Part shown: one piece after another, positions 7,623 to 28,929 of the stretch
How positions within the stretch are numbered: position 1 is the first letter of the stretch
Layout: each line of letters begins with the position of its first letter
Source of the DNA: Bathymodiolus brooksi thiotrophic gill symbiont
GTDB lineage: Bacteria; Pseudomonadota; Gammaproteobacteria; PS1; Pseudothioglobaceae
Direction of reading: 5' to 3'
DNA: 42,523 nucleotides
NCBI RefSeq assembly: GCF_903642095.1
Contig: NZ_CAHJWD020000390.1
Span: 1 to 42,523, forward strand
Position numbers and translations under genes: made by a program
The notes under the pieces: generated by a model
The model's database searches: none
The model's input: only the letters and a program-made list of their open reading frames with translations
What the model was told of the DNA's origin: nothing

Positions 7623-8303
7623 TTACCCTCTTCTTCTAACGATTTGATAATTTTTACGAGTAATGTATTGCAATGGAACACTCCAAATATGCACCAATCG
7701 TGTGAATGGAAAGATGATAAATAGACTCATTCCTAGCACCAAATGTAATTTAAATACCCAAGCCTCAGCGATAATGAAATCAGCAGCACCTGTTCTAAAT
7801 GTTACAATATGTTGTGCCCAATTTGCTAAAGCAATCATTGAACTACCATCTAAATGTTGTGCTGAGTATGGAATAGTAATCAAACCTAATAATAACTGCA
7901 AAAATAAATAAAGCAAAACAAATGTATCGCTAAATTTAGATGTCTTGCTAATACGCTTATCAAACAAGCGTCTGTTAAGCAAAATCAGTATCCCAATTAA
8001 ACACATAGTGCCAAAAATACCACCAGCAATCATTGCCATAATTTGCTTAGTGCCTGCACTCATAAATGGGTGATATACCCATTCTGGTGTCAATAAACCA
8101 ACAAAATGACCAAAAAACAATAAGATTATCCCGATATGGAATAAATTACTACCGACCAACATTCCTTTTTTGCGTAACAATTGCGATGAATCTGATTTCC
8201 AAGTATATTGATCTCTATCGTAACGCATTGCACTACCCAAAAGAAATATTGTCATTGCAATATAGGGAAAATAACCGAAAAAAAACTGATTTAAAAAAAC
8301 CAT
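7623..8303 (-). CDS. narI: Respiratory nitrate reductase gamma subunit (cytochrome b)
   Basis: 226 aa membrane subunit that takes electrons from quinol and passes them through two b hemes to NarH. Five transmembrane segments are visible. Candidate heme ligands are the histidines in SNLFHIGIILLFFGHFVGL and in the C-terminal KLHLVLGMSLFIIFPFTRLVHIWSVP region. Length and the ending YITRKNYQIVRRR are typical of NarI. It lies 12 nt after narJ within the narGHJI operon. Confidence 0.96.
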   Translation of the reverse strand: MVFLNQFFFGYFPYIAMTIFLLGSAMRYDRDQYTWKSDSSQLLRKKGMLVGSNLFHIGIILLFFGHFVGLLTPEWVYHPFMSAGTKQIMAMIAGGIFGTMCLIGILILLNRRLFDKRISKTSKFSDTFVLLYLFLQLLLGLITIPYSAQHLDGSSMIALANWAQHIVTFRTGAADFIIAEAWVFKLHLVLGMSLFIIFPFTRLVHIWSVPLQYITRKNYQIVRRRG

Positions 8304-8315
8304 AATATATCTCCT

Positions 8316-8972
8316 TTAATTTAAACTTGCGTCGTCTTCGCAAGTATTACATTCTGAGGCTTCACCACTAAATGCCTCTTGCTCTTTCCAAAGCTCATCT
8401 AACTCATCTAAAGTCTCTGGTTCTTTAGGTGAGTTTTCTATTGCTTCGGCAACTCTAAATTTATTAACTTTAATCTTTGATAACTCTTCTAATGCGATAA
8501 ATATCACTTTATAAGGTGATTTATTCTTCTTAAGATGTCCGCCAATTAAAGCGATAATATCAATAGAATCTCCTAACGATTCTTTTGCCTCTTCAACATC
8601 ACACAAAGATAAATATTCCAAAAATAATGGCAAGTAATCAGGCAGTTCTTTTTTGTTAATAAACAACCCCTTACTAGCATACATCTCCTTCAAATCAACC
8701 ATTGCCTGACCTCTGTCTCGTGATTCGCCATGAATATGTTCAAAAAGATTTAGACAATGATTTCTACTTCTGTCAAATGTGCTAACAAAACGCTCTTGTA
8801 ATTCTAAAAAATCTTCATTTTTATAATCATCAAGAAAAACCAGCAAATCTTTGAGTGTTTTCTTAGGTAATAAATTTTCTTCTTTTAAAACCTCAGCCAA
8901 ATCTTTGGTGTTCGTGTGGACACTTTCTTCTGGATAAGATAATAAAATCGCTAAAACTTTTAATGTTTTCAT
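8316..8972 (-). CDS. narJ: Nitrate reductase molybdenum cofactor assembly chaperone
   Basis: 218 aa acidic, all-helical TorD/DmsD/NarJ-family chaperone that guides molybdenum-cofactor insertion into NarG and membrane attachment of NarGH. The family core LNLFEHIHGESRDRGQAMVDL and the following DYLPLFLEYLS are present. It overlaps narH by 4 nt (ATGA). The C-terminus ends in a CNTCEDD segment whose role is unclear. Confidence 0.95.
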   Translation of the reverse strand: MKTLKVLAILLSYPEESVHTNTKDLAEVLKEENLLPKKTLKDLLVFLDDYKNEDFLELQERFVSTFDRSRNHCLNLFEHIHGESRDRGQAMVDLKEMYASKGLFINKKELPDYLPLFLEYLSLCDVEEAKESLGDSIDIIALIGGHLKKNKSPYKVIFIALEELSKIKVNKFRVAEAIENSPKEPETLDELDELWKEQEAFSGEASECNTCEDDASLN

Positions 8973-10510
8973 GGAGTCTTCCCGCTCATTGTATTTTTAT
9001 GCGTGTTACCGCCAAACAAAGTTGCTGTTGTTGCACCTTCTGAACAACCATTACCAAAAGTAAACCCACAAGAAGATTTATTATCAAAAGCAATTTCATT
9101 ATCAAAAGGGGTATCCCCTGAATATTCTTTGTGATTTGTCGGAATAACAAATCTATCTTCGTAAGCAGCTAATGCCATTGTTTTATACATATCATCAACC
9201 ATATCTTCTGTTAATCCAACCTCATCCAAAACTTCTGTTAAGGCAGCATTGTCAACTTTTTTACCACGCATAAAATTACGCATCGCTATCATTCTTTTTA
9301 AAGCAAAGATAATGGGCTCATCATTACCAGCAGTTAGCATATTTGCTAAATATCGAACTGGAATACGCAAATCTTCAACATTAGGAATAGGTCCTCTATG
9401 ATCAATCACACCTTTTTCAATTGCATTTTGAATAGGAGATAGAGGAGGCACATACCAAACCATTGGTAAAGTTCTATACTCAGGATGCAACGGGAATGCC
9501 ACTTTCCAATCGATTGCCATTTTATAAACAGGTGAGTTTTTAGCCGCTTCCATCCAACTATCAGGCACACCATCTTTTTTGGCTTGTTTTTGTATTGCCT
9601 CATCATGTGGATCTAAAAATATTTCTAATTGTGCCTCATATAAGTCTTTTTCATCACTCATATTTGCCATTTCTTCAATTCTATCTGCATCATAAAGAAT
9701 AACGCCTAAATTACGAATTCTCCCAACACAAGTTTCAGAACAAACAGTTGGTTCCCCTGATTCTATTCTTGGGTAACAAAAAGTGCATTTCTCTGATTTT
9801 CCAGATTGCCAATTATAATAAATCTTTTTGTAAGGACAGGCACTAACACACATCCTCCAGCCTCTACATTTATCTTGATCAATTAAGACAATACCATCTT
9901 CTTCTCTTTTATAAATCGCACCACTTGGACACGCTGCAACACAAGTTGGGTTAAGACAATGTTCACACAATCTAGGCAAATACATCATAAAGGTGTTTTC
10001 AAATTCGCCATAAATTTGTTTTTCAATTTCCTTAAAGTTATAATCTTTTGATCGTTTTTTAAATTCACCGCCTAAAATTTCTTCCCAGTTAGGCCCCCAT
10101 TCTGGTTTTTCCATTACTTCACCAGTAATCATCGAATGTGGTCTTGCTACTGGCGGTGTTGACATTTCAGGCGCATTTTGCAAATGTGCATAATTAAAGG
10201 TAAATGGTTCATAATAATCATCAATTTCGGGTAAATCAGGATTGGCAAATATTTTTGCTAACAATCTAAACTTACCCCCCACTTTAGGTTGTAATTTCCC
10301 ATTTTTAGAAACCCAGCCACCGTTCCATTTATCTTGATTTTCCCAATCTACTGGATAACCAATACCCGGTTTAGTCTCTACATTATTAAACCAAGCGTAT
10401 TCAACCCCTTGACGCGAAGTCCAAACATTTTTACAAGTAACTGAACATGTATGACAACCGATACATTTGTCTAAATTTAAGACCATTCCTATTTGTGCTC
10501 TTATTTTCAT
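8969..10510 (-). CDS. narH: Respiratory nitrate reductase beta subunit (iron-sulfur)
   Basis: 513 aa electron-transfer subunit with four ferredoxin-like cysteine groups: CIGCHTCSVTCKN, CEHCLNPTCVAACP, CRGWRMCVSACP and CTFCYPRIES...CSETCVGR. In the third group Trp replaces one Cys (CRGWRMC), which in this family marks the [3Fe-4S] cluster. NarH accepts electrons from the NarI hemes and feeds NarG. It overlaps narG (4 nt) and narJ (4 nt), indicating tight translational coupling. Confidence 0.97.
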   Translation of the reverse strand: MKIRAQIGMVLNLDKCIGCHTCSVTCKNVWTSRQGVEYAWFNNVETKPGIGYPVDWENQDKWNGGWVSKNGKLQPKVGGKFRLLAKIFANPDLPEIDDYYEPFTFNYAHLQNAPEMSTPPVARPHSMITGEVMEKPEWGPNWEEILGGEFKKRSKDYNFKEIEKQIYGEFENTFMMYLPRLCEHCLNPTCVAACPSGAIYKREEDGIVLIDQDKCRGWRMCVSACPYKKIYYNWQSGKSEKCTFCYPRIESGEPTVCSETCVGRIRNLGVILYDADRIEEMANMSDEKDLYEAQLEIFLDPHDEAIQKQAKKDGVPDSWMEAAKNSPVYKMAIDWKVAFPLHPEYRTLPMVWYVPPLSPIQNAIEKGVIDHRGPIPNVEDLRIPVRYLANMLTAGNDEPIIFALKRMIAMRNFMRGKKVDNAALTEVLDEVGLTEDMVDDMYKTMALAAYEDRFVIPTNHKEYSGDTPFDNEIAFDNKSSCGFTFGNGCSEGATTATLFGGNTHKNTMSGKTP

Positions 10511-13500
10511 GCCTTATCTCCTTTTATTGGTTCATCTTTCCACTCAATCTTATCCATTTTACGAACAATAACAAACTCATCTCGATTAGAGCCAACTGTG
10601 CCATAATAATTAAATCCATACGACTGTTGTGCATAGCCACCAATCATATGAGTTGGTTTTGTAATTGTTCTAGTAACTGAATTATGAATACCACCTCTAA
10701 AGCCAGATTTTTCTGCTACAGGCGTGGTGTTTATTTTTTCTTGGGCGTGATACATCATTGACATACCCTCGGGAACTCTTTGTGAAACAACTGCTCTTGC
10801 TGCAATCGTGCCATTGACATTATACAATTCAATCCAATCGTTATCTTCAACACCTATTTTTCTAGCATCAATTTCACTCAGCCATACAACTGGGCCACCA
10901 CGATTAAGTGTCAACATTAATAAGTTATCAGAATAAGTAGAATGAATACCCCATTTTTGATGTGGTGTAATCCAATTCAACACTACTTGGGGACGATTAT
11001 CATTATTATCATTGATAATTGGTGCTATTGTTTTGGTATTAATGGGTGGCTTGTAAGTGCATAAATTCTCACCAAAGTCCACCATCCATTTATGGTCTTG
11101 ATAAAACTGCTGTCTGCCAGTTAAGGTTCTCCATGGAATATACTCATGCACATTGGTATAACCAGCATTATAACTTACATGCTCATCTTCAAGTCCAGAC
11201 CAAGTAGGGGATGAAATAATTTTTCTAGGCTGTGCTTGCACATCTCTAAAGCGAATTTTTTCGTCTTCTTTTGGTTTTGCTAGATGCGTATGGTCTCTAC
11301 CTGTTATTTTACCCAAAGCCTCCCAAGCTTTAACTGCCACTTGACCATTGGTTTCTGGTGCCAGTGATAAAATAACTTCTGTGGCATCAATATCTGTTTC
11401 TATTTTTGGCAATCCTTTAGAAACGCCCTCTTCTCTTACCGTTGTATTTAAACCATTTAGCAACGCTATTTCATCTTCAGTATTCCAAGAGATGCCTTTA
11501 CCGCCATTACCAATCTTGCTCATCAAAGGACCTAAAGAAGTAAATTTTTTGTAAGTATCAGGATAATTACGCTCAACCTCGACAAAATTAGGCATCGTTT
11601 TACCTGGGATTGCCTCACATTCATCGTCAAACCAAGCCTTAACATCAGTTGCTTGTGCCATTTCTCCCGGAGTGTCATGCAAAATAGGCAAGGCAACAAC
11701 ATCTTTTTCTTCGTCTAAATGACCGGGGCAAAGTTCTGAGAATTTTTTCGCCAAACCTTTATAAATCTCCCAATCACTTCTCGATTCCCAAGCAGGGTCA
11801 ACTGCCTTAGAAAGGGGGTGAATGAAAGGGTGCATATCCGAAGTATTAAGGTCATTTTTTTCATACCAAGTTGCTGATGGTAAAACAATATCAGAATATA
11901 AACAAGTCGTTGACATTCTAAAATCAAGCGTTACAAATAAATCAACTTTACCTTCTGCACCATCACGCCATTTAACTTCAGATGGTTTTTTATCTGTTTC
12001 TTTGCCAAACACTGCATTTTGTGTGCCTAACAAATGTTTAAGCATATATTCATGACCTTTACCACTAGAACCTAATAAATTAGAACGCCAAATAAACATA
12101 TTGCGAGGGAAGTTTTTAGGATTATCGGGATCTTCACAAGAAAATTTCAAATCTTTAGATTTTAATTGCTGAACAATGTAATCTTTAACATCCATTTTTG
12201 CTGCCGCAGCTTTTTTTGTAATTTCTAATGGATTTTCTTCAAATTGAGGGGCAGAAGGCAACCAACCCATTTTTTCACTACGCACATTGCAGTCAATCAT
12301 TGAATAGTTTTCCCAATCTTTTTTGTCTGCTAATGGGGATAAAATTTCATCCACACCTAATTTTTCATAACGCCATTGGCTAGAATGGTTGTAAAAAAAT
12401 GAAGTGCCATTCATATGTCTAGGTGGACGATGCCAATCTAGTCCAAAGGCTAATGGCTGCCAACCAGTTTGAGGACGAAGTTTTTCTTGTCCTACATAAT
12501 GAGCCCAGCCACCACCTGATTTACCAATACATCCACACATCATTAATACATTGATAATGCCACGATAAATCATATCCATATGATACCAATGATTAACAGC
12601 GGCACCCAAAATTACCATTGATTTGCCTTTTGTTTTATGAGCATTTTCTGAAAATTCTTTGGCAATACGAATAACTTGCTCTTTAGGAACACCCGTTACT
12701 TGTTCATTCCAAGCAGGCGTATAAGGAACATCGTCATCAAAAGAACTGGCAACATTTTCACCTCCTAAGCCTTGATCAACGCTGTAATTTGCCATCATTA
12801 AATCAAAAACTGTAGCGACTTTAACCTCTTTGCCGTCAGCCAGTGTTACTTTTTTAATTGGAACATTTCTTTGTAAAATAGCATCATGATCGGTGTTAGC
12901 AAATATCTCTTGTTCGTGTTCTTTATTATTAAAATATGGAAAACCAACAGACACAACTTCATCATTATCATTTTTTAAAGTTGTTTTGGGGCTGATATCT
13001 TCGCCATTTTTAACATTTTTACTTTCAATATTCCATTTTCCAGAACCGTCCCATCTAGAGCCAATAGTTCCTGTAGGTATTACAATTTCATTGGTATTTT
13101 CATCAATTAACAATGGCTTCCATTCAGTATTGTCTTTTTCACCTAGAGTATTTTCCATATCTGAAGCCCTTAAGGTTCTCGTTGGAGACAAAATATCATT
13201 TTTTTCTTCCAAAATAACAAGGAAAGGCATATCAGTATATTGCTTAATATAGCTCGTAAAATACTCACTTTTATTATCTAAATGGTATTCTTTTAAAATA
13301 ATATGCCCCATGGTCATTGCTAAAGCAGCATCTGTGCCTTGGGTTGGTGCCATCCATTCATCAGAAAGTTTAGCAACTTCACTAAAGTCAGGTGTTACTG
13401 CAATAGTTTTTGTGCCGCTATAACGCGTTTCTGTGAAAAAATGTGCATCAGGTGTGCGCGTTTGTGGCACATTAGACCCCCATGCCATAATATAAGATGA

Positions 13501-14241
13501 GTTATACCAATCTGCACTTTCAGGAACATCTGTTTGTTCACCCCAAACCTGAGGAGATGACGGTGGTAAATCACAATACCAATCATAAAAACTCAAACAA
13601 GTTCCCCCTATAAGTGATAAATAACGAGAGCCAGCAGCGTAAGATACCATTGACATAGCAGGGATTGGTGAAAAGCCAACAACTCTATCTGGGCCATAAG
13701 TTTTTGCAGTATAAATATTAGAAGCAGCAATAATTTCATTAACCTCCTCCCAATCAGCTCGAACCATTCCACCCAATCCACGAACTTCTTTGTATTCTCT
13801 AGATTTCTCTTTATCATTCACAATGGCTTTCCAAGCATCAACTGGGTCTGCATTTTGACGCTTAGATTCACGCCAAATTCTTAACAATTTCGAGCGAATT
13901 AAAGGATATTTAAGGCGAGTAGAACTATACAAATACCATGAATATGAAGCACCTCTTGGACAACCACGAGGCTCATGATCAGGTAGGTCAGGGCGAGTTC
14001 TTGGATAATTAGTTTGTTGCGTTTCCCAAGTTACCAGACCATTTTTAACATAAATTTTCCAACTACAAGATCCAGTGCAGTTAACACCGTGCGTTGAGCG
14101 AACTACCTTATCATGCCCCCAGCGACCCCGATAGGCACGCTCCCAATCTCTGTTTTCATAAACTAACTTTCCATGTCCATTGGAAAACTCCTCTGCTTTT
14201 TCTTTATTAAAAAAGCTCAATCTATCTAATAAATGACTCAT
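10507..14241 (-). CDS. narG: Respiratory nitrate reductase alpha subunit (molybdenum catalytic)
   Basis: 1244 aa catalytic subunit that reduces nitrate to nitrite at a molybdo-bis(pyranopterin guanine dinucleotide) centre. The N-terminal FS0 cluster motif is HGVNCTGSC followed by a distant Cys in RGCPRGAS, with His as first ligand as in E. coli NarG. The Mo-ligand aspartate lies in WYCDLPPSSPQ. There is no twin-arginine signal peptide for export, so this is the cytoplasm-facing Nar type and not periplasmic Nap. It starts 31 nt after the narK2-type gene. Confidence 0.97.
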   Translation of the reverse strand: MSHLLDRLSFFNKEKAEEFSNGHGKLVYENRDWERAYRGRWGHDKVVRSTHGVNCTGSCSWKIYVKNGLVTWETQQTNYPRTRPDLPDHEPRGCPRGASYSWYLYSSTRLKYPLIRSKLLRIWRESKRQNADPVDAWKAIVNDKEKSREYKEVRGLGGMVRADWEEVNEIIAASNIYTAKTYGPDRVVGFSPIPAMSMVSYAAGSRYLSLIGGTCLSFYDWYCDLPPSSPQVWGEQTDVPESADWYNSSYIMAWGSNVPQTRTPDAHFFTETRYSGTKTIAVTPDFSEVAKLSDEWMAPTQGTDAALAMTMGHIILKEYHLDNKSEYFTSYIKQYTDMPFLVILEEKNDILSPTRTLRASDMENTLGEKDNTEWKPLLIDENTNEIVIPTGTIGSRWDGSGKWNIESKNVKNGEDISPKTTLKNDNDEVVSVGFPYFNNKEHEQEIFANTDHDAILQRNVPIKKVTLADGKEVKVATVFDLMMANYSVDQGLGGENVASSFDDDVPYTPAWNEQVTGVPKEQVIRIAKEFSENAHKTKGKSMVILGAAVNHWYHMDMIYRGIINVLMMCGCIGKSGGGWAHYVGQEKLRPQTGWQPLAFGLDWHRPPRHMNGTSFFYNHSSQWRYEKLGVDEILSPLADKKDWENYSMIDCNVRSEKMGWLPSAPQFEENPLEITKKAAAAKMDVKDYIVQQLKSKDLKFSCEDPDNPKNFPRNMFIWRSNLLGSSGKGHEYMLKHLLGTQNAVFGKETDKKPSEVKWRDGAEGKVDLFVTLDFRMSTTCLYSDIVLPSATWYEKNDLNTSDMHPFIHPLSKAVDPAWESRSDWEIYKGLAKKFSELCPGHLDEEKDVVALPILHDTPGEMAQATDVKAWFDDECEAIPGKTMPNFVEVERNYPDTYKKFTSLGPLMSKIGNGGKGISWNTEDEIALLNGLNTTVREEGVSKGLPKIETDIDATEVILSLAPETNGQVAVKAWEALGKITGRDHTHLAKPKEDEKIRFRDVQAQPRKIISSPTWSGLEDEHVSYNAGYTNVHEYIPWRTLTGRQQFYQDHKWMVDFGENLCTYKPPINTKTIAPIINDNNDNRPQVVLNWITPHQKWGIHSTYSDNLLMLTLNRGGPVVWLSEIDARKIGVEDNDWIELYNVNGTIAARAVVSQRVPEGMSMMYHAQEKINTTPVAEKSGFRGGIHNSVTRTITKPTHMIGGYAQQSYGFNYYGTVGSNRDEFVIVRKMDKIEWKDEPIKGDKA

Positions 14242-14272: not shown

Positions 14273-15892
14273 TTATGGGTTGTAAAATTCAGCATCTTTG
14301 CGTAAATAAAACCACCAATTGATAATCATACAAATCGCATAAAAAATTGCGAAACCATACAATGCATTTTCTGGTGTCGTTAATTTAATTTGCTCACCAA
14401 ATACTTTTGGAATAATAAACGCACCATAAGCCGCCACTGCCGAAGTCCATCCCAGCACTGGACCTGCTTGCTCTTTATTAAACACCTGTGAAATTGTTCT
14501 AAAAGTAGAGCCATTACCAATGCCAGTCATTGCAAATAGCACAACAAATAAGATTAAAAATGGATAGAAAAATTCTTCAGGCGTTGCCGATGAATAAGCT
14601 TGCTTCATAAAGTAGGCTACACCTAATGCTGATACCACCATTACTGCAGAAATAATCTGCGTTACTTTGGCGCCACCAATTTTATCAGCAATCATACCGC
14701 CAATAGGTCGGATAAGTGCACCAACAAAGGCACCCATCCAAGCATAAGTAAGTGCTGAAGGGCTATTTGGATTTATCGTATTGTGCGTCATTATGCCGTC
14801 AACTAAAATGTGTTGAAAACCGAAAATAACCTTAATTGATAATGCTAATGTTGCAGCATAACCAATAAATGAACCAAAAGTCATGGTGTAAATAATGGTC
14901 ATCGCCCAAGTGTGTTTATTGCTAAAAATTTTATACTGACGATTAATACCTTCTTTGTAATCATTGCCAAGTGGTAATAATTTAAGCAATAATACCGTTA
15001 AAATAATTACAATTGGAAGCACCACCCACTTGCTAACCATAAGCCCAGAGCCATTAACCACCTCTGGAAGCATTAAATACAAACCAAATGTCGCTGTTGA
15101 AAGTCCTAAAATCAACATCACAATAATCTTGATGAATGCACCCAAGGTTGAGCCAATATTTGGAGACACATGGTCTTCAGTGATATTGTTCATCCCTATC
15201 CAAGTTGCAAGAGATAAGGGGATTAAAAGGATTAACCAAACATAACCTGCATTTTGCAAATAAGTATCTGTGCCTGCTGGAATTTTACCAATCAATGTGC
15301 CTGAAGCAATTTGCAACTCTGTCGGGTTGCCCATTATTGCAAGTGTCATTACCAATGGGATAACAATCTGCATTGTGGTTACACCAAAATTACCAAGACC
15401 TGCATTCATACCAAGAGAGTAACCTTGAATTTTCTTTGGAAAGAAGAATGAAATATTTGACATTGACGAAGCAAAATTACCGCCACCAAAGCCAGACAAT
15501 AATGCCAGAATCTGAAAATGCCAAAATGGTGTATCAGGTGCAGAAAGTGCAATACCTAAACCTAAAGCTGGCAATATTAAAAGTGTAGTGGTTAAGAAAA
15601 TGGTATTTCTACCACCTGCTAAACGAATAAAAAATGTTGAGGGGATTCTCAAGGTAGCACCTGATAAACCAGCAATAGCCGCCAAGGTAAATAATTGAGA
15701 CTTGTCAAAGCCACCATAACCCGTATTCATCATTTGCACTGTAATAATGCCCCACATTAGCCATGTGGCAAAACCTGCCAATAAACTCGGAATAGAAATC
15801 CATAAATTGCGGTTAGCTATTGTTTTACCAGTGCTTTCCCATTCAGACTTATCATCTGGATTCCAGTTTTTTATATCTTGAGCCATTTGCAA
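14273..15892 (-). CDS. narK2: NarK2-type nitrate/nitrite transporter
   Basis: 539 aa major-facilitator protein with 12 or more membrane segments. The first helix carries GFATWLMWGIITVQM and the nitrate-porter signature appears as LLSGFGGGNFASSMSNISFFFPKKIQGYSLGMN; LGNFGVT and TFRTISQVF match the second signature. Length and the extra loops resemble the NarK2 (nitrate/nitrite antiport) group, which exports nitrite made by NarGHI. An AGGAGG-like site (AAAGGAGG, about 15895-15902) precedes the start. Subtype assignment is by resemblance only. It lies between the MITE at 15936 and narG. Confidence 0.92.
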   Translation of the reverse strand: MQMAQDIKNWNPDDKSEWESTGKTIANRNLWISIPSLLAGFATWLMWGIITVQMMNTGYGGFDKSQLFTLAAIAGLSGATLRIPSTFFIRLAGGRNTIFLTTTLLILPALGLGIALSAPDTPFWHFQILALLSGFGGGNFASSMSNISFFFPKKIQGYSLGMNAGLGNFGVTTMQIVIPLVMTLAIMGNPTELQIASGTLIGKIPAGTDTYLQNAGYVWLILLIPLSLATWIGMNNITEDHVSPNIGSTLGAFIKIIVMLILGLSTATFGLYLMLPEVVNGSGLMVSKWVVLPIVIILTVLLLKLLPLGNDYKEGINRQYKIFSNKHTWAMTIIYTMTFGSFIGYAATLALSIKVIFGFQHILVDGIMTHNTINPNSPSALTYAWMGAFVGALIRPIGGMIADKIGGAKVTQIISAVMVVSALGVAYFMKQAYSSATPEEFFYPFLILFVVLFAMTGIGNGSTFRTISQVFNKEQAGPVLGWTSAVAAYGAFIIPKVFGEQIKLTTPENALYGFAIFYAICMIINWWFYLRKDAEFYNP

Positions 15893-16153: not shown

Positions 16154-17446
16154 TCATAAGTTTTTTGCATATTCTTTTAACGCTTCAGTTCTTGCTTTTT
16201 CAGTGTGCTTAATTTTTTTCTCTTTAGCAAAAGTAAAATACATCCAAACCAAAGAAACTGCTGTTGCTCCATACAACAACATAAATATCACACTATTAAT
16301 ACCTGTGTAGTCAATTAATATGCCAAACATAATGGGCAAAGTAAAGCCACCCAAACCACCAGCCATACCAACAACACCAGATACTACGCCAATATTATCT
16401 GGATACTCATCTGATAAGAATTTAAATACACTTGCCTTGCCAAATCCCCAAGAAATACCTAGGATAAATAATAAAGCAGTAAAAACCCAGACATTTAAAC
16501 TAATATCGAATTTAACTTCACCTGTGGTGGTTTTAATCAATAAAGCAGTTTGAGGGTAAGACATAAAAAATAAACAAACAAGAGAAACCCACATAACCCA
16601 CCAAGTAACTTTATATGCGCCATATTTATCAGCAAACCAACCCCCTAAAGCTCGAACAATACCTGAAGGCAAAACAAAAATAGCACCTAATAAAGCGGCA
16701 GTTTTTAGCTCAAAACCGTATTCATTAATATAATATTTAGTCATCCATAAAGACAACCCAACAAAACCGCCAAATACCAATGAATAATATTGCATATATT
16801 TCCATACTTTAGGGTCTTTTAATACCTGTAATTGTTCTTTAATAGTTACTTTAGAAGCATGTTTATGAGCAGGATCAGTATAAGTAAACATCCAATATAA
16901 AATGACCACTACCACCATAGCAACAGCGTATATCTTTGGCACCATTTGCCAACCAAAAGATAGCAAAATAGTTGGGGCAACAAAATTTGTAATCGCTGCA
17001 CCTGCATTACCTGCACCAAAAATACCCATGGCAAAACCTTGATGCTCTTTATCAAACCATTTAGAAGTATAGGCAATACCTACGGTAAATGAAGCGCCTG
17101 CTATACCTACTAACAATCCCAATACTAAAAATTGCCAATATTGCGTGGCTGAGCCAATAAACCACAATGGCGTTAATACAGTTAAGAGCAAAATAAGATA
17201 AACAATCCTACCGCCAAATCTATCCGTCATCATACCAACAGGGAGTCTAAAAATTGAACCTGTTAAAATAGGTGTTGCGACTAAAATACCAAATTGAGTA
17301 TTATTCAATGATAACAATTCCTTGATAGGAATGCCAATAATTGAGAACATTACCCACACAGCAAAACACGCTGTAAATGCAATGGTATTAGCCGCCAAGA
17401 CTGATTTAGCTTGTGCAGTTTGGCTTTTAATTGTGGAAATACCCAT
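16154..17446 (-). CDS. narK1: NarK1-type nitrate transporter
   Basis: 430 aa major-facilitator protein with 12 membrane segments. The nitrate-porter signature is seen as GIAGASFTVGIAYTSKWFDKEHQGFAMGIFGAGNAG, and the second half carries GVVGMAGGLGGFTLP; arginines in FRLPVGMMTDRFGG and VRALGGWFADKYG are as expected for nitrate binding. The compact size and sequence resemble the NarK1/NasA nitrate-proton symport group. It is the first gene of the nar transcript, with AGGA 6 nt before the ATG, and faces the NIT-Crp regulator across a 111-nt intergenic region. Confidence 0.93.
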   Translation of the reverse strand: MGISTIKSQTAQAKSVLAANTIAFTACFAVWVMFSIIGIPIKELLSLNNTQFGILVATPILTGSIFRLPVGMMTDRFGGRIVYLILLLTVLTPLWFIGSATQYWQFLVLGLLVGIAGASFTVGIAYTSKWFDKEHQGFAMGIFGAGNAGAAITNFVAPTILLSFGWQMVPKIYAVAMVVVVILYWMFTYTDPAHKHASKVTIKEQLQVLKDPKVWKYMQYYSLVFGGFVGLSLWMTKYYINEYGFELKTAALLGAIFVLPSGIVRALGGWFADKYGAYKVTWWVMWVSLVCLFFMSYPQTALLIKTTTGEVKFDISLNVWVFTALLFILGISWGFGKASVFKFLSDEYPDNIGVVSGVVGMAGGLGGFTLPIMFGILIDYTGINSVIFMLLYGATAVSLVWMYFTFAKEKKIKHTEKARTEALKEYAKNL

Positions 17447-17527
17447 ATACTTATCCTGATAATTTGTTCTAATTTTATATTCTATTTACTTGCATTTAGA
17501 TTTAAAATATGGCTTTTTACAAAAAGT

Positions 17528-17541
17528 GTGATTTATATCAC
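17528..17541. promoter_or_regulatory. Crp/FNR-type operator between narK1 and the NIT-Crp regulator
   Basis: GTGATTTATATCAC has perfect five-base arms (GTGAT and ATCAC) with a four-base centre, the FNR/DNR layout (TTGAT-N4-ATCAA) with a G/C outer pair as in many NarR/DNR-like sites. Its centre is 17 nt-scale close to the regulator start (17558) and about 88 nt from narK1. If it acts at -41.5 on narK1, transcription would start near 17493, where TTAAAT (17500-17505, minus strand) could be the -10. That placement is inferred. Confidence 0.65.
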
Positions 17542-17557
17542 GCAATATTATCTAACT

Positions 17558-19081
17558 ATGCGACAACTACAAATACTTAGCAATACATTTCACACATTAC
17601 AAAATGAACGGGGCTTTGCAATGCTTTATTTGCGTGAAAATACAACGAAATATAAGCAAGATATGTTGGGTTATTTTGCTAAAAGTAACTTAAATATTAA
17701 GCAATTAAAACTAGATATTGCACAACAAAGTGGCAATAAAATGGATTTAGAGCAACAAAAATTAATTCAAACTATTGAGAAAAGTTTAAAGAAATTAAAA
17801 GCCAATCGTTTGGCATTGCTACATTTGGAATCAAAGGCTGGCACTGTGTTTGATTTGTATTCTTATCAACTTATTTCCCCTATCATTCAGTTAATGACTC
17901 ATTTAATTTTAAAAATCAAAAATACACACCCTAGTGCAATTAGTGCTTATTGCTTTTTTCTGCAATGGAAGGAGAAAGTTGGCTTAGAACGCTCCATTAT
18001 TATGCGTGGCTTTGCTGAAAGCAATTCTAATAAAAATAAATGTATTGAACACATTAAAGTTTTAATTAATGAACAACAATATTACAAAAAATCATTCTTG
18101 TCCTTGGCCACAATTGAGCAAAAAAGTTTCATTCAAGCCATCTATCAAACACCTGATATAGATACATTGCACACCATCCACCACCAACTCACCACACACG
18201 GAAAATCAGATATCCTTTCTAAGATGAGCACTAAAGATTGGTTTGCACTTATCTCAAAAAAAATGAACAAACTACATGATATTGAAGAAAAACTGCGCCT
18301 TACCTTAGAAGGAAAACATCAATTAAGTAAACACAAAATCAATACACCCATTACCTCAGAACGCTTGGCATACAAGATTACTCTGTTTCAAGATATGCCT
18401 ATCAATAAGGTGGAACAAATTATTAGCCATTCTAAAATTTATCAAATCCCAAAAAACAAAGTGCTTATTTTGGAAAAAAATCCAGTAACCCATCTATATA
18501 TCGTTTTAATGGGTTGGGTTAAAATTTTTAAGCAAAACAATGGTCAAAGTGAAATTTTACAAATTATTGGTAACAATGAAACTGTATTAGAACATTGTTT
18601 GTTTACACATCAAGTTTTTAACGCAAATGCCAAAACTATTACCGATACATTGATGCTATCTATTCCAATTAATGTGCTTAACCATACGCTAGAACAATCC
18701 TCCAAATTTACACATAATTTCATCGTTATGAGTGCACAAAAGACCAATACTGCTTTGCAAAATCTTCAATCTATTAAACATAAAAATACCGAGCAAAGAA
18801 TGGGGGAATTTTTCCTAAAATTACTCAATGATAAAAAATGGCAATCTAACACCATTCAATTACCTTACAACAAGTCTCTTATTTCTTCTTATTTGGGTAT
18901 GAGCAGGGAAGTATTCTCACGCAATCTAAAACACCTGTCTCACCAAGGTATTAGTATTGAAAAGAAAACCATCACTATTACCAATAAGGAGAAATTATGT
19001 AAATATTGCCATTTTGATGCCAATAACCAGTGTTATAATTTTCAGCACAATCAATGCCGTTACAATGAACAAAATAAATAA
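17558..19081 (+). CDS. NIT-domain / Crp-FNR fusion transcriptional regulator
   Basis: 507 aa from the ATG at 17558; the frame is open 49 codons further upstream, but that part crosses the operator and the narK1 start. Residues about 1-250 form an all-helical NIT (nitrate/nitrite-sensing) domain with LQNERGFA (Arg18), WKEKVGLERS (Arg145) and KDWFALISKKMNKL, matching the NasR-type sensor. Residues about 270-400 are a cyclic-nucleotide-type beta-barrel (THLYIVLMGWVKIF), followed by a Crp helix-turn-helix (SLISSYLGMSREVFSRNLKHL). The tail has Cys481, Cys484, Cys492 and Cys500 (C-x2-C-x7-C-x7-C), possible metal or Fe-S ligands. Divergence from narK1 makes it the likely nar activator. NIT is better known on antiterminators, kinases and cyclases. 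Confidence 0.88.
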   Translation: MRQLQILSNTFHTLQNERGFAMLYLRENTTKYKQDMLGYFAKSNLNIKQLKLDIAQQSGNKMDLEQQKLIQTIEKSLKKLKANRLALLHLESKAGTVFDLYSYQLISPIIQLMTHLILKIKNTHPSAISAYCFFLQWKEKVGLERSIIMRGFAESNSNKNKCIEHIKVLINEQQYYKKSFLSLATIEQKSFIQAIYQTPDIDTLHTIHHQLTTHGKSDILSKMSTKDWFALISKKMNKLHDIEEKLRLTLEGKHQLSKHKINTPITSERLAYKITLFQDMPINKVEQIISHSKIYQIPKNKVLILEKNPVTHLYIVLMGWVKIFKQNNGQSEILQIIGNNETVLEHCLFTHQVFNANAKTITDTLMLSIPINVLNHTLEQSSKFTHNFIVMSAQKTNTALQNLQSIKHKNTEQRMGEFFLKLLNDKKWQSNTIQLPYNKSLISSYLGMSREVFSRNLKHLSHQGISIEKKTITITNKEKLCKYCHFDANNQCYNFQHNQCRYNEQNK

Positions 19082-19908: not shown

Positions 19909-20391
19909 TTATCTCCTTAAAATATCAATTAGTCCTTGAAACTTTATCCATAAATCGGCGTTATTATCTACTTGCCTAGAGCGAATAATAAAAGGTTCTG
20001 CCTGCTCGTAAATGCGAATAATCATAGTTTTTTGCGCATCTTTTATCATTGTTATGTCATAAATATCAGATTCTATGCCGACACCAATAATTTCATAATA
20101 ATTCAATAGGTTTCTGATAGCAATTGCTTCTTTGGAATTTTTTTTACTTAATTTGGCAAAATCTTCAATACGATACTCTTCATCTATTTTTCTTAGTATT
20201 TTCAAGCCATCTGTTAAAAAATCATCTTCCAAATCTTTCATTAATAAGCCGATAGTTTTGTCTTTTTTAATAGTTTCTCTTTGTTTTTTAATTGAAATCC
20301 ACGCAACGAAAACAGCCACTATTAAAGTGGCTGTTTGTATAATTTGAAAAGTTATTTGATTGTCTAATTCCATTAAAGAACTATAACCCAT
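19909..20391 (-). CDS. DUF4760-like membrane-anchored protein
   Basis: 160 aa with one N-terminal membrane segment (about residues 14-32, FQIIQTATLIVAVFVAWISI), then a basic patch and a helical cytosolic domain with IAIRNLLNYYEIIGVGIESDIYD, the conserved block of DUF4760 proteins. Function is unknown. AGAGGG upstream of the ATG supports this start over the internal Met7. It is immediately upstream of rluB and probably co-transcribed. An AATAAT-C-ATTATT palindrome precedes it (20408-20420). Confidence 0.7.
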   Translation of the reverse strand: MGYSSLMELDNQITFQIIQTATLIVAVFVAWISIKKQRETIKKDKTIGLLMKDLEDDFLTDGLKILRKIDEEYRIEDFAKLSKKNSKEAIAIRNLLNYYEIIGVGIESDIYDITMIKDAQKTMIIRIYEQAEPFIIRSRQVDNNADLWIKFQGLIDILRR

Positions 20392-28238: not shown

Positions 28239-28929
28239 GGTGTGCCATTCTGCCTGAATTTACGCCATCTCGGCGATAAGAAAAATAATCTTTATCTTGC
28301 TCAGCAGTGCATTGATTACCGCCACTCATTGTTTTAATACCTAAATTATTCAAAATAATACGGGCGGCTTGGTAAATATCAAGGTGATATTTTTCACCTA
28401 TTTGTGCAAATGCCACACTGAGTTTTTTGTCTTTGGTTACAAATTGTTCAAACACCTCTTTGCCAACTTCAAGGTTTTTTGATGAAATCGCCGCACCAAA
28501 ATGTATCAATAAATCACGCTCATCAAACTGCTCAATAAACGATTCAATCACACCATTAAGAATCCCTTGCCAGCCCGCGTGAGCAACCCCAACCTGCGTG
28601 CCAGACTGATTGGAAGCAAAAATCGGCAAACAATCAGCAGTCATTACCGCACAAATTACACTTTTTTCACGGGTGATAACAGCATCCCCTTCGCAATCAT
28701 TGGACTGGGCATCTAAGCAAATATTAGAATGAATTTGATTCAGCCATTTTGGCGTATTGGGCAGGTCAAAATGCGTTATCAGTAATTCACGATTATGAGC
28801 AACGGCATCAAGATTATCGCCCGTGTGTGTGGCTAAATTAAAATTGCCATAACCGCCCTTGCTCGCTCCACCTTGTAAATACCGTGGTGTTGAAAGTAAC
28901 TTAACATTGTCTGGGAAATTAAACTGCAT
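28219..28929 (-). CDS. pgeF: YfiH-family polyphenol oxidase / purine nucleoside phosphorylase-like protein
   Basis: 236 aa member of the laccase-like YfiH family, linked in E. coli to peptidoglycan editing and in other species to purine nucleoside phosphorylase activity. The metal site is visible: His in LNQIHSN, Cys in TADCLPIFA and His in GVAHAGWQGIL. YFSYRRDGVNSGRMAHLIW closes the family pattern. It lies 35 nt after rluD, the same neighbour order as in many gammaproteobacteria. Confidence 0.92.
   Translation of the reverse strand: MQFNFPDNVKLLSTPRYLQGGASKGGYGNFNLATHTGDNLDAVAHNRELLITHFDLPNTPKWLNQIHSNICLDAQSNDCEGDAVITREKSVICAVMTADCLPIFASNQSGTQVGVAHAGWQGILNGVIESFIEQFDERDLLIHFGAAISSKNLEVGKEVFEQFVTKDKKLSVAFAQIGEKYHLDIYQAARIILNNLGIKTMSGGNQCTAEQDKDYFSYRRDGVNSGRMAHLIWITT

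Follow-up and report, generated by a model that had tools for sequence, protein, structure and literature searches.

The window analysed here, a stretch of 42,523 nucleotides, carries a gene whose product joins a predicted nitrate/nitrite sensor domain (NIT), a Crp/Fnr DNA-binding module and a cysteine tail in one chain, and which lies divergent from narK1 at the head of a nar gene cluster. The features of the locus are as follows.

7623..14241, minus strand: narGHJI (narH, narJ and narI by Pfam, narG by eye from its translation; synteny)
14273..15892, minus strand: narK2 (MFS_1; named by eye; synteny)
16154..17446, minus strand: narK1, divergent predicted target (MFS_1; named by eye from its position next to narGHJI; synteny)
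17527..17542: palindrome TGTGATTTATATCACG, between narK1 and the fusion gene, predicted to be the operator of the fusion
17558..19081, plus strand: NIT-Crp/Fnr fusion gene, 507 aa (Pfam NIT, cNMP_binding and HTH_Crp_2; same-frame relatives)
17588..18298, plus strand: predicted NIT nitrate/nitrite sensor domain, residues 11-247
17609..17611, plus strand: R18 within QNERG, opposite NasR R50 in the alignment (derived number); R in 141/142 fusion rows reaching the position
17987..17992, plus strand: E144-R145 within GLERS, opposite NasR E175-R176 in the alignment; predicted nitrate pocket
18446..18697, plus strand: Crp/Fnr effector barrel (PF00027, E 5.7e-13; alignment with E. coli CRP)
18794..19006, plus strand: Crp-type helix-turn-helix, residues 413-483 (PF13545, E 1.7e-12)
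18905..18907, plus strand: R450, equivalent of CRP R180, separating GTGA from TTGA half-sites
18998..19057, plus strand: CX2CX7CX7C tail (C481, C484, C492, C500), candidate Fe-S site

An earlier note, made from the letters of the sequence, had proposed that a NIT domain, a complete Crp/FNR barrel and a helix-turn-helix are joined in this one protein, and the Pfam profiles match all three, PF08376 (NIT) scoring 85.7 bits against a gathering score of 24.9. The cNMP-type barrel together with the Crp helix-turn-helix places the protein in the Crp/Fnr superfamily, and its N-terminal part has the NasR-type helical bundle of a NIT domain, fold and profile comparison agreeing on the likeness. The three outcomes that the note had named as fatal (no PF08376 match, a fold unlike NasR, an assembly join of two genes) did not occur. 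In particular, an assembly or annotation artefact can be regarded as refuted, given that the same-frame fusion recurs in other assemblies, both in the window's order (identity 88-41%) and in other orders, and that dN/dS is 0.08-0.16. AlphaFold gave a pTM of 0.53, so the arrangement of the domains is not established by the model, and its confidence falls below 50 in the tail at residues 488-491 and 501-507.

The best NCBIfam match of the fusion is FtrB, with 115 bits against a cut-off of 211, and it scores 34.7 bits against 266 for CRP and 37.5 against 228 for Fnr. When it is aligned to the E. coli CRP sequence, the cAMP contacts that we take to be G71, R82 and T127 (mature numbering) are replaced by L, N and A, three positions in a gapped stretch. 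The N-terminal Cys ligands of E. coli-type FNR are absent; the NIT domain occupies the N-terminus and four conserved Cys are C-terminal. A relative with 88% identity is named HcpR by NCBI, and the fusion does have the R180-equivalent and the TGTGA-N6-TCACA type of site associated with HcpR, yet these are common to other Crp/Fnr proteins and are not diagnostic.

The two arginines that had been singled out in the NIT part, Arg18 (QNERG) and Arg145 (GLERS), align with arginines of NasR and are near-invariant. In an alignment of 149 fusion rows (27 of the window's type and 122 others, one gene entering under two handles, L162 and P0032), R145 is conserved in 149/149 and E144 in 148/149, and the KDWF block, also pointed out before, keeps W228 in 149/149 and F229 in 132. 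A profile built from seven NIT parts returned one PDB match, NasR (E 1.2e-5), with Q15-N-E-R18 lying on NasR QCER and G142-L-E-R145 on NasR GQER. According to the available passages of PMC8199190, the nitrate-binding residues form a G-x-x-R motif in which Gln replaces one Gly in NasR, and the fusion carries the same asymmetric Q/G pair of motifs. NasR E175 and R176 are given as predicted pocket residues in the accessible text of PMC7496416, from whose E191, R193 and Q194 the numbering offset was taken that yields the E144/R145 and R18-R50 pairings. The NIT part is, on these grounds, predicted to bind nitrate or nitrite. That it responds to nitrite alone, to a different anion or to an internal metabolite, or is a dimerisation arm, with nar control remaining, seems unlikely to us: the link to nitrate comes from residue conservation and fold, which leaves room for such a role, but both NasR Q/G-x-E-R motifs stayed near-invariant while the remaining domain diverged, and the gene mostly stays with narK. 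One fusion (L232, G1119:C15) has Phe for R145, and neither narK1 nor a box was found in the stretch read around it, a possible case of ligand change.

In a tree, one branch separates the NIT halves of 28 fusions (without P0008) from 11 NIT domains of other proteins; in these 11, membrane/HAMP-like stretches come next, as judged by eye. The window's own genome, whose close relatives carry names of Bathymodiolus gill symbionts, has one NIT protein, and a PilJ/NarX-type sensor domain was not found in it (the E. coli control was positive), so that the fusion stands there without a sensor of that type.

The position divergent from narK1, likewise noticed earlier for the window, proved to be general in its order. 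Of the 83 genomes searched, seven encode the fusion as a single open frame. In G417 the gene is divided between two contigs, in G422 it is frameshifted into two frames, and G109 retains a relic. The fusion is divergent from narK1 in 9/9 loci (one-frame, split and frameshifted), and narK1 is followed by narK2 and then by the nar structural genes where the contig allows. The narH profile (PF14711) matches in 27/83 genomes, among them these nine; G109 gave no match, and the remaining 18 narH genomes are without a fusion. In G427 and G372 the gene arrangement is unchanged, with a fusion only 41-45% identical to that of the window and narG/narH of another type (58-61%). The nar operon and the regulator seem to decay together, as in G407 (L154) and G409 (L155), where the operon is broken into many short frames, and in G109 with its relic and no narH found. 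Four genomes of about 1.0 Mb (G402, G406, G410 and G403; loci L149, L150, L151 and L161) keep narG and narH; narK1/narK2 were not found in the stretches read, nor either regulator at the threshold used.

The palindrome TGTGATTTATATCACG lies upstream of both genes, with its centre 88 bp from the start codon of narK1 and about 23 bp from that of the fusion. We scanned 20 narK1 promoters of the order, 260 bp each, for the patterns GTGA-N6-TCAC and TTGA-N6-TCAA (in three, L082, L091 and L093, the aligned narK1 start is not ATG and distances are approximate). Promoters of genomes with the fusion only, among which we counted G417 with its gene split over contigs and G431, which also carries a broken Crp-like stretch, have the GTGA box in 6/6 cases and the TTGA box in 0/6. 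Those with a stand-alone Crp/Fnr protein only have TTGA in 10/10 and GTGA in 1/10 (G415), and the two promoters with both regulators carry both boxes (2/2), 38 bp apart. Neither box was present at the narK1 promoter of G422, with its frameshifted fusion, or of G226, where no regulator was found. Overall, GTGA occurs in 8/8 promoters whose fusion gene shows no break, counting one gene divided between contigs, and in 1/12 others, and TTGA in 12/12 promoters with a stand-alone protein and in 0/8 others. In 400 dinucleotide shuffles per promoter, GTGA matched in 0-0.7% and TTGA in 0-2.8%; Fisher p was 7e-5 for GTGA with the fusion and 8e-6 for TTGA with the stand-alone, values to be read with the relatedness of the promoters, because of which the counts are not independent events. 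By eye, a hexamer TTAAAT lies about where a -10 element is expected for a class II site.

The difference in boxes is explained by the recognition helix. R450, E451, S454 and R455 of the fusion align with R180, E181, G184 and R185 of CRP (mature numbering) and with V208, E209, S212 and R213 of FNR, and position 450 is Arg in 27/27 fusions of the window's type and Pro in 20/20 stand-alone proteins. PMC1274295, in its accessible part, pairs Arg at the R180 position with TGTGA-N6-TCACA sites, and Ser or Pro there with TTGAC-N4-GTCAA, which accounts for the GTGA/TTGA split. Box and residue 450 thus vary together in the computed set, and for the 29/122 fusion rows outside the window's set that have Arg450, GTGA boxes are predicted. 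As an operator prediction drawn from sequence, the local one is unusually clean.

The palindrome could also belong to another Crp/Fnr protein, with the fusion acting elsewhere or on itself only. Two observations lean that way: a GTGATTTATATCAC site also adjoins a different Crp-like gene in G427 (L137, named by eye), and G415 (87% complete) has a GTGA box at narK1 with no fusion found, the sole exception to the match between box and regulator. Against this, the type of box tracks residue 450 of the fusion in the window's order and two other orders, the box is missing where the fusion is frameshifted (G422), and GTGAY-N4-RTCAC has three exact sites in the window's whole genome, of which the other two lie within large open reading frames; we hold another owner to be improbable. 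At the G415 promoter (L160, G415:C67), GTGACCTATATCAC and TTGATATATATCAA lie 39 bp apart. In L137 (G427:C39; positions 2154-2912 and 2985), the GTGATTTATATCAC box stands between the Crp-like gene and an apparent flavocytochrome c sulfide dehydrogenase pair, the genes being judged by eye. The looser pattern GTGA-N6-TCAC has a second site in the window, at 28384, within an open reading frame.

Wider regulons were looked for by counting. A GTGA regulon beyond nar was not supported, GTGA palindromes being fewer than the reversed control in 7/8 genomes and equal in one. A TTGA regulon restricted to genomes with the stand-alone protein was also rejected: TTGA palindromes exceed the control in 16/16 genomes, with 33-66 in the six fusion-only genomes, 46 in G226, where neither regulator was found, and 40-61 in the nine with a stand-alone protein, so that whole-genome counts do not track the regulators.

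The C-terminal cysteines had not been remarked on in the earlier note, nor had the breadth of the family. The exact pattern CX2CX7CX7C occurs in 22/27 fusions of the window's type and in 120/122 other rows; the seven exceptions are two rows with X9 in the last gap, one with X10, P0020 and P0022 without the fourth Cys, P0008 without the first and fourth, and P0130 without the first. The same four Cys are invariant in 19/19 stand-alone Crp/Fnr proteins of the window's order (a twentieth row, L080, much like L081, was left out of this alignment). In the class sample, 17 Crp-only rows are without the tail. By eye it is present in L164, a stand-alone protein from outside the class, which speaks against its being confined to one order.

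Genes typically controlled by FNR include hemN, nrdD and nar. The stand-alone proteins have HemN and FtsK (L078) or NRDD (L083) nearby, and narK1 lies in the stretches of L082, L083, L091 and L093; other neighbours are a molybdopterin oxidoreductase and a multihaem cytochrome (L085) and DctM and glycine-cleavage T genes (L092, L090). The stand-alone loci have a TTGA box upstream in 16/20 cases and GTGA in 0/20, one of the other four having nearly no upstream DNA. Further targets of the stand-alone proteins in anaerobic respiration are likely. At L085, L086 and L089 (G426, G372 and G427), the stand-alone gene adjoins a set of similar-sized open reading frames.

We regard an Fe-S cluster, labile to oxygen or NO, as the most likely occupant of the tail. 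In the accessible descriptions, Fnr of Bacillus bears a [4Fe-4S] cluster in a C-terminal Cys-rich extension (PMC3520743, PMC12937710), its ligands being CX2CX4C plus Asp (PMC3520743), a Gram-positive-type set that the CX2CX7CX7C of the fusion does not match. We give a lesser, though real, chance to the view that the protein is the same nitrate regulator, in which the tail binds structural zinc or acts as a thiol redox switch, anoxia being sensed elsewhere or not at all. It is compatible with a tail that is poorly modelled and for which no computation identifies a metal, with the excess of TTGA palindromes over control in fusion-only genomes, where another anoxia regulator is possible, and with a second Crp/Fnr protein in the window's genome (L006, 1117-1929). 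It accords less well with the invariance of the same four Cys in the 19 stand-alone proteins, some near hemN, nrdD or nar, and with the C-terminal position of the cluster in Gram-positive Fnr as described. By eye, the second protein (G000:C478), the only other with PF00027 among the two of this genome, carries a CxxC in its N-terminal part and has a recognition helix that is unusual; an ANTAR-like response regulator, also by eye, lies close by at 2147-2731.

The fusion is not limited to one family, as a sample of the phylum (398 genomes) gave, besides the window's own genome, full-length fusions in G755 and G806, both divergent from narK1-narK2-narG. The class sample (369 genomes) contained the full fusion only in the window's own genome, with a relic in the same family. 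Two earlier protein searches, one of which scored 7995 candidates sharing most words, found at least 29 and at least 30 proteins, two largely overlapping sets. A search that started from the G755 and G806 fusions found at least 194 clusters (7996 candidates scored); the 120 clusters listed all have the three Pfam domains, and the names include Kordiimonas, Emcibacteraceae, Sphingomonadales, Rhizobiaceae and Methyloligella, all Alphaproteobacteria. Full-length fusions were present in 37/296 and 14/299 genomes of the orders of G755 and G806; three further matches in the first of these searches covered the Crp part only, and one in the second was cut by a contig end. The spread is patchy, the class sample of G806 (289 genomes) giving a full fusion in G806 only.

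All 45 out-of-class loci that were read have Pro450 and the tail, and narK1 is divergent in 43 (the other two being L230, which starts at the end of its contig, and L201, which is close to such an end); their 44 upstream regions contain a TTGA box in 42 cases and GTGA in none. Eight lower-ranked outside loci all have Pro450, with TTGA in five, GTGA in none and no box in three; narK1 is divergent in four and was not found in four, and the tail pattern is present in seven, L233 having undetermined letters. Fusion and stand-alone proteins as a single sister clade were supported without the out-of-class rows and not resolved with them. In G1127:C106 two fusion genes (L238 and L200) lie about 1.5 kb apart, narK1 being beside L200 and not matched in the stretch read around L238. 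Matches to the Crp part within open frames of 511 and 521 aa (G1095:C8 and G1089:C14) may represent the same Crp/Fnr module joined to different N-terminal sensors.

Among known systems, NasR of Klebsiella oxytoca (4AKK), a NIT-ANTAR antiterminator tied to nitrate assimilation genes, shares the sensor; its output is an RNA-binding ANTAR domain, whereas the fusion has a Crp/Fnr DNA-binding output, an additional Cys tail and a place beside nitrate respiration genes. The HcpR/DNR/FNR group shares the barrel, the helix-turn-helix and a half-site set by the CRP R180 equivalent, and differs in the NIT domain, the tail and the divergent narK partner; to our knowledge, Bacillus Fnr has no NIT domain. 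As a rule, oxygen and nitrate are sensed by separate proteins in the control of nitrate respiration, and in E. coli FNR plus NarXL report anoxia and nitrate at the narK and narG promoters, that is, two regulators, one of them two-component, in contrast to one chain with the same predicted logic. The earlier note had presented nitrate perception and promoter binding in one chain as unusual. This stands for the NIT fusion, but the principle is not wholly new: Paracoccus NarR, in the accessible text of PMC4771820 and PMC8139620, is a nitrate/nitrite regulator of nar, and like the fusion it belongs to the Crp/FNR superfamily and links nitrate to nar transcription in one chain. The same passages describe NarR as without an Fe-S cluster and do not mention a NIT domain, and by this description it is set apart. 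In the open-access literature, which leaves subscription journals largely outside, we found no paper describing a NIT-Crp/Fnr protein; the databases name the combination 'nitrate- and nitrite sensing domain-containing protein'. The single modules are all known; as far as we have seen, their conserved combination is undescribed there.

We consider it likely that the gene encodes a one-component regulator of respiratory nitrate reduction, made of NIT, Crp/Fnr and Cys tail and acting at the narK1 box, and the synteny and the tracking of the box with the recognition helix support the one-component nitrate regulator of nar that had been proposed. Computation gave the modules, the pocket residues, the synteny, the conservation of the tail and the box with its co-variation with residue 450; we infer the ligand, the cluster, the dimer, the allosteric path and activation rather than repression, and the mechanism would then run as follows. 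The NIT bundle of a dimer would take up its ligand, nitrate or nitrite, between a pair of arginines in the way proposed for NasR, and the signal would pass from NIT through the linker to the Crp/Fnr barrel and dimer helix. With the tail cluster intact, the helix-turn-helix would bind the palindrome at 17527-17542 and the bound fusion would activate narK1-narK2-narGHJI; probably it also controls its own gene, because the centre of the box is so close to its own start codon. If the tail carries an Fe-S cluster labile to oxygen or NO, a single chain would require anoxia and nitrate together.

Less firmly, and on balance, we favour a wider reading in which NIT - Crp/Fnr - CX2CX7CX7C proteins form an undescribed three-module family in at least three proteobacterial orders, serving as an AND gate for anoxia and nitrate that replaces FNR plus NarXL at nar promoters; the operator class (TTGA or GTGA) would be set by one recognition-helix residue, and the window's lineage would no longer share sites with the stand-alone Cys-tail equivalents of FNR. 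If true, sensing of anoxia and nitrate by one chain would be a compact regulatory solution, from which a nitrate biosensor with a DNA output could readily be developed, and the promoter and residue-450 data make operator switching within the Crp/Fnr family testable on a natural example.

Downstream of the fusion, at 19909-20391, an open reading frame of 160 aa is intact in the window and appears as two overlapping pieces in a close relative (L066).
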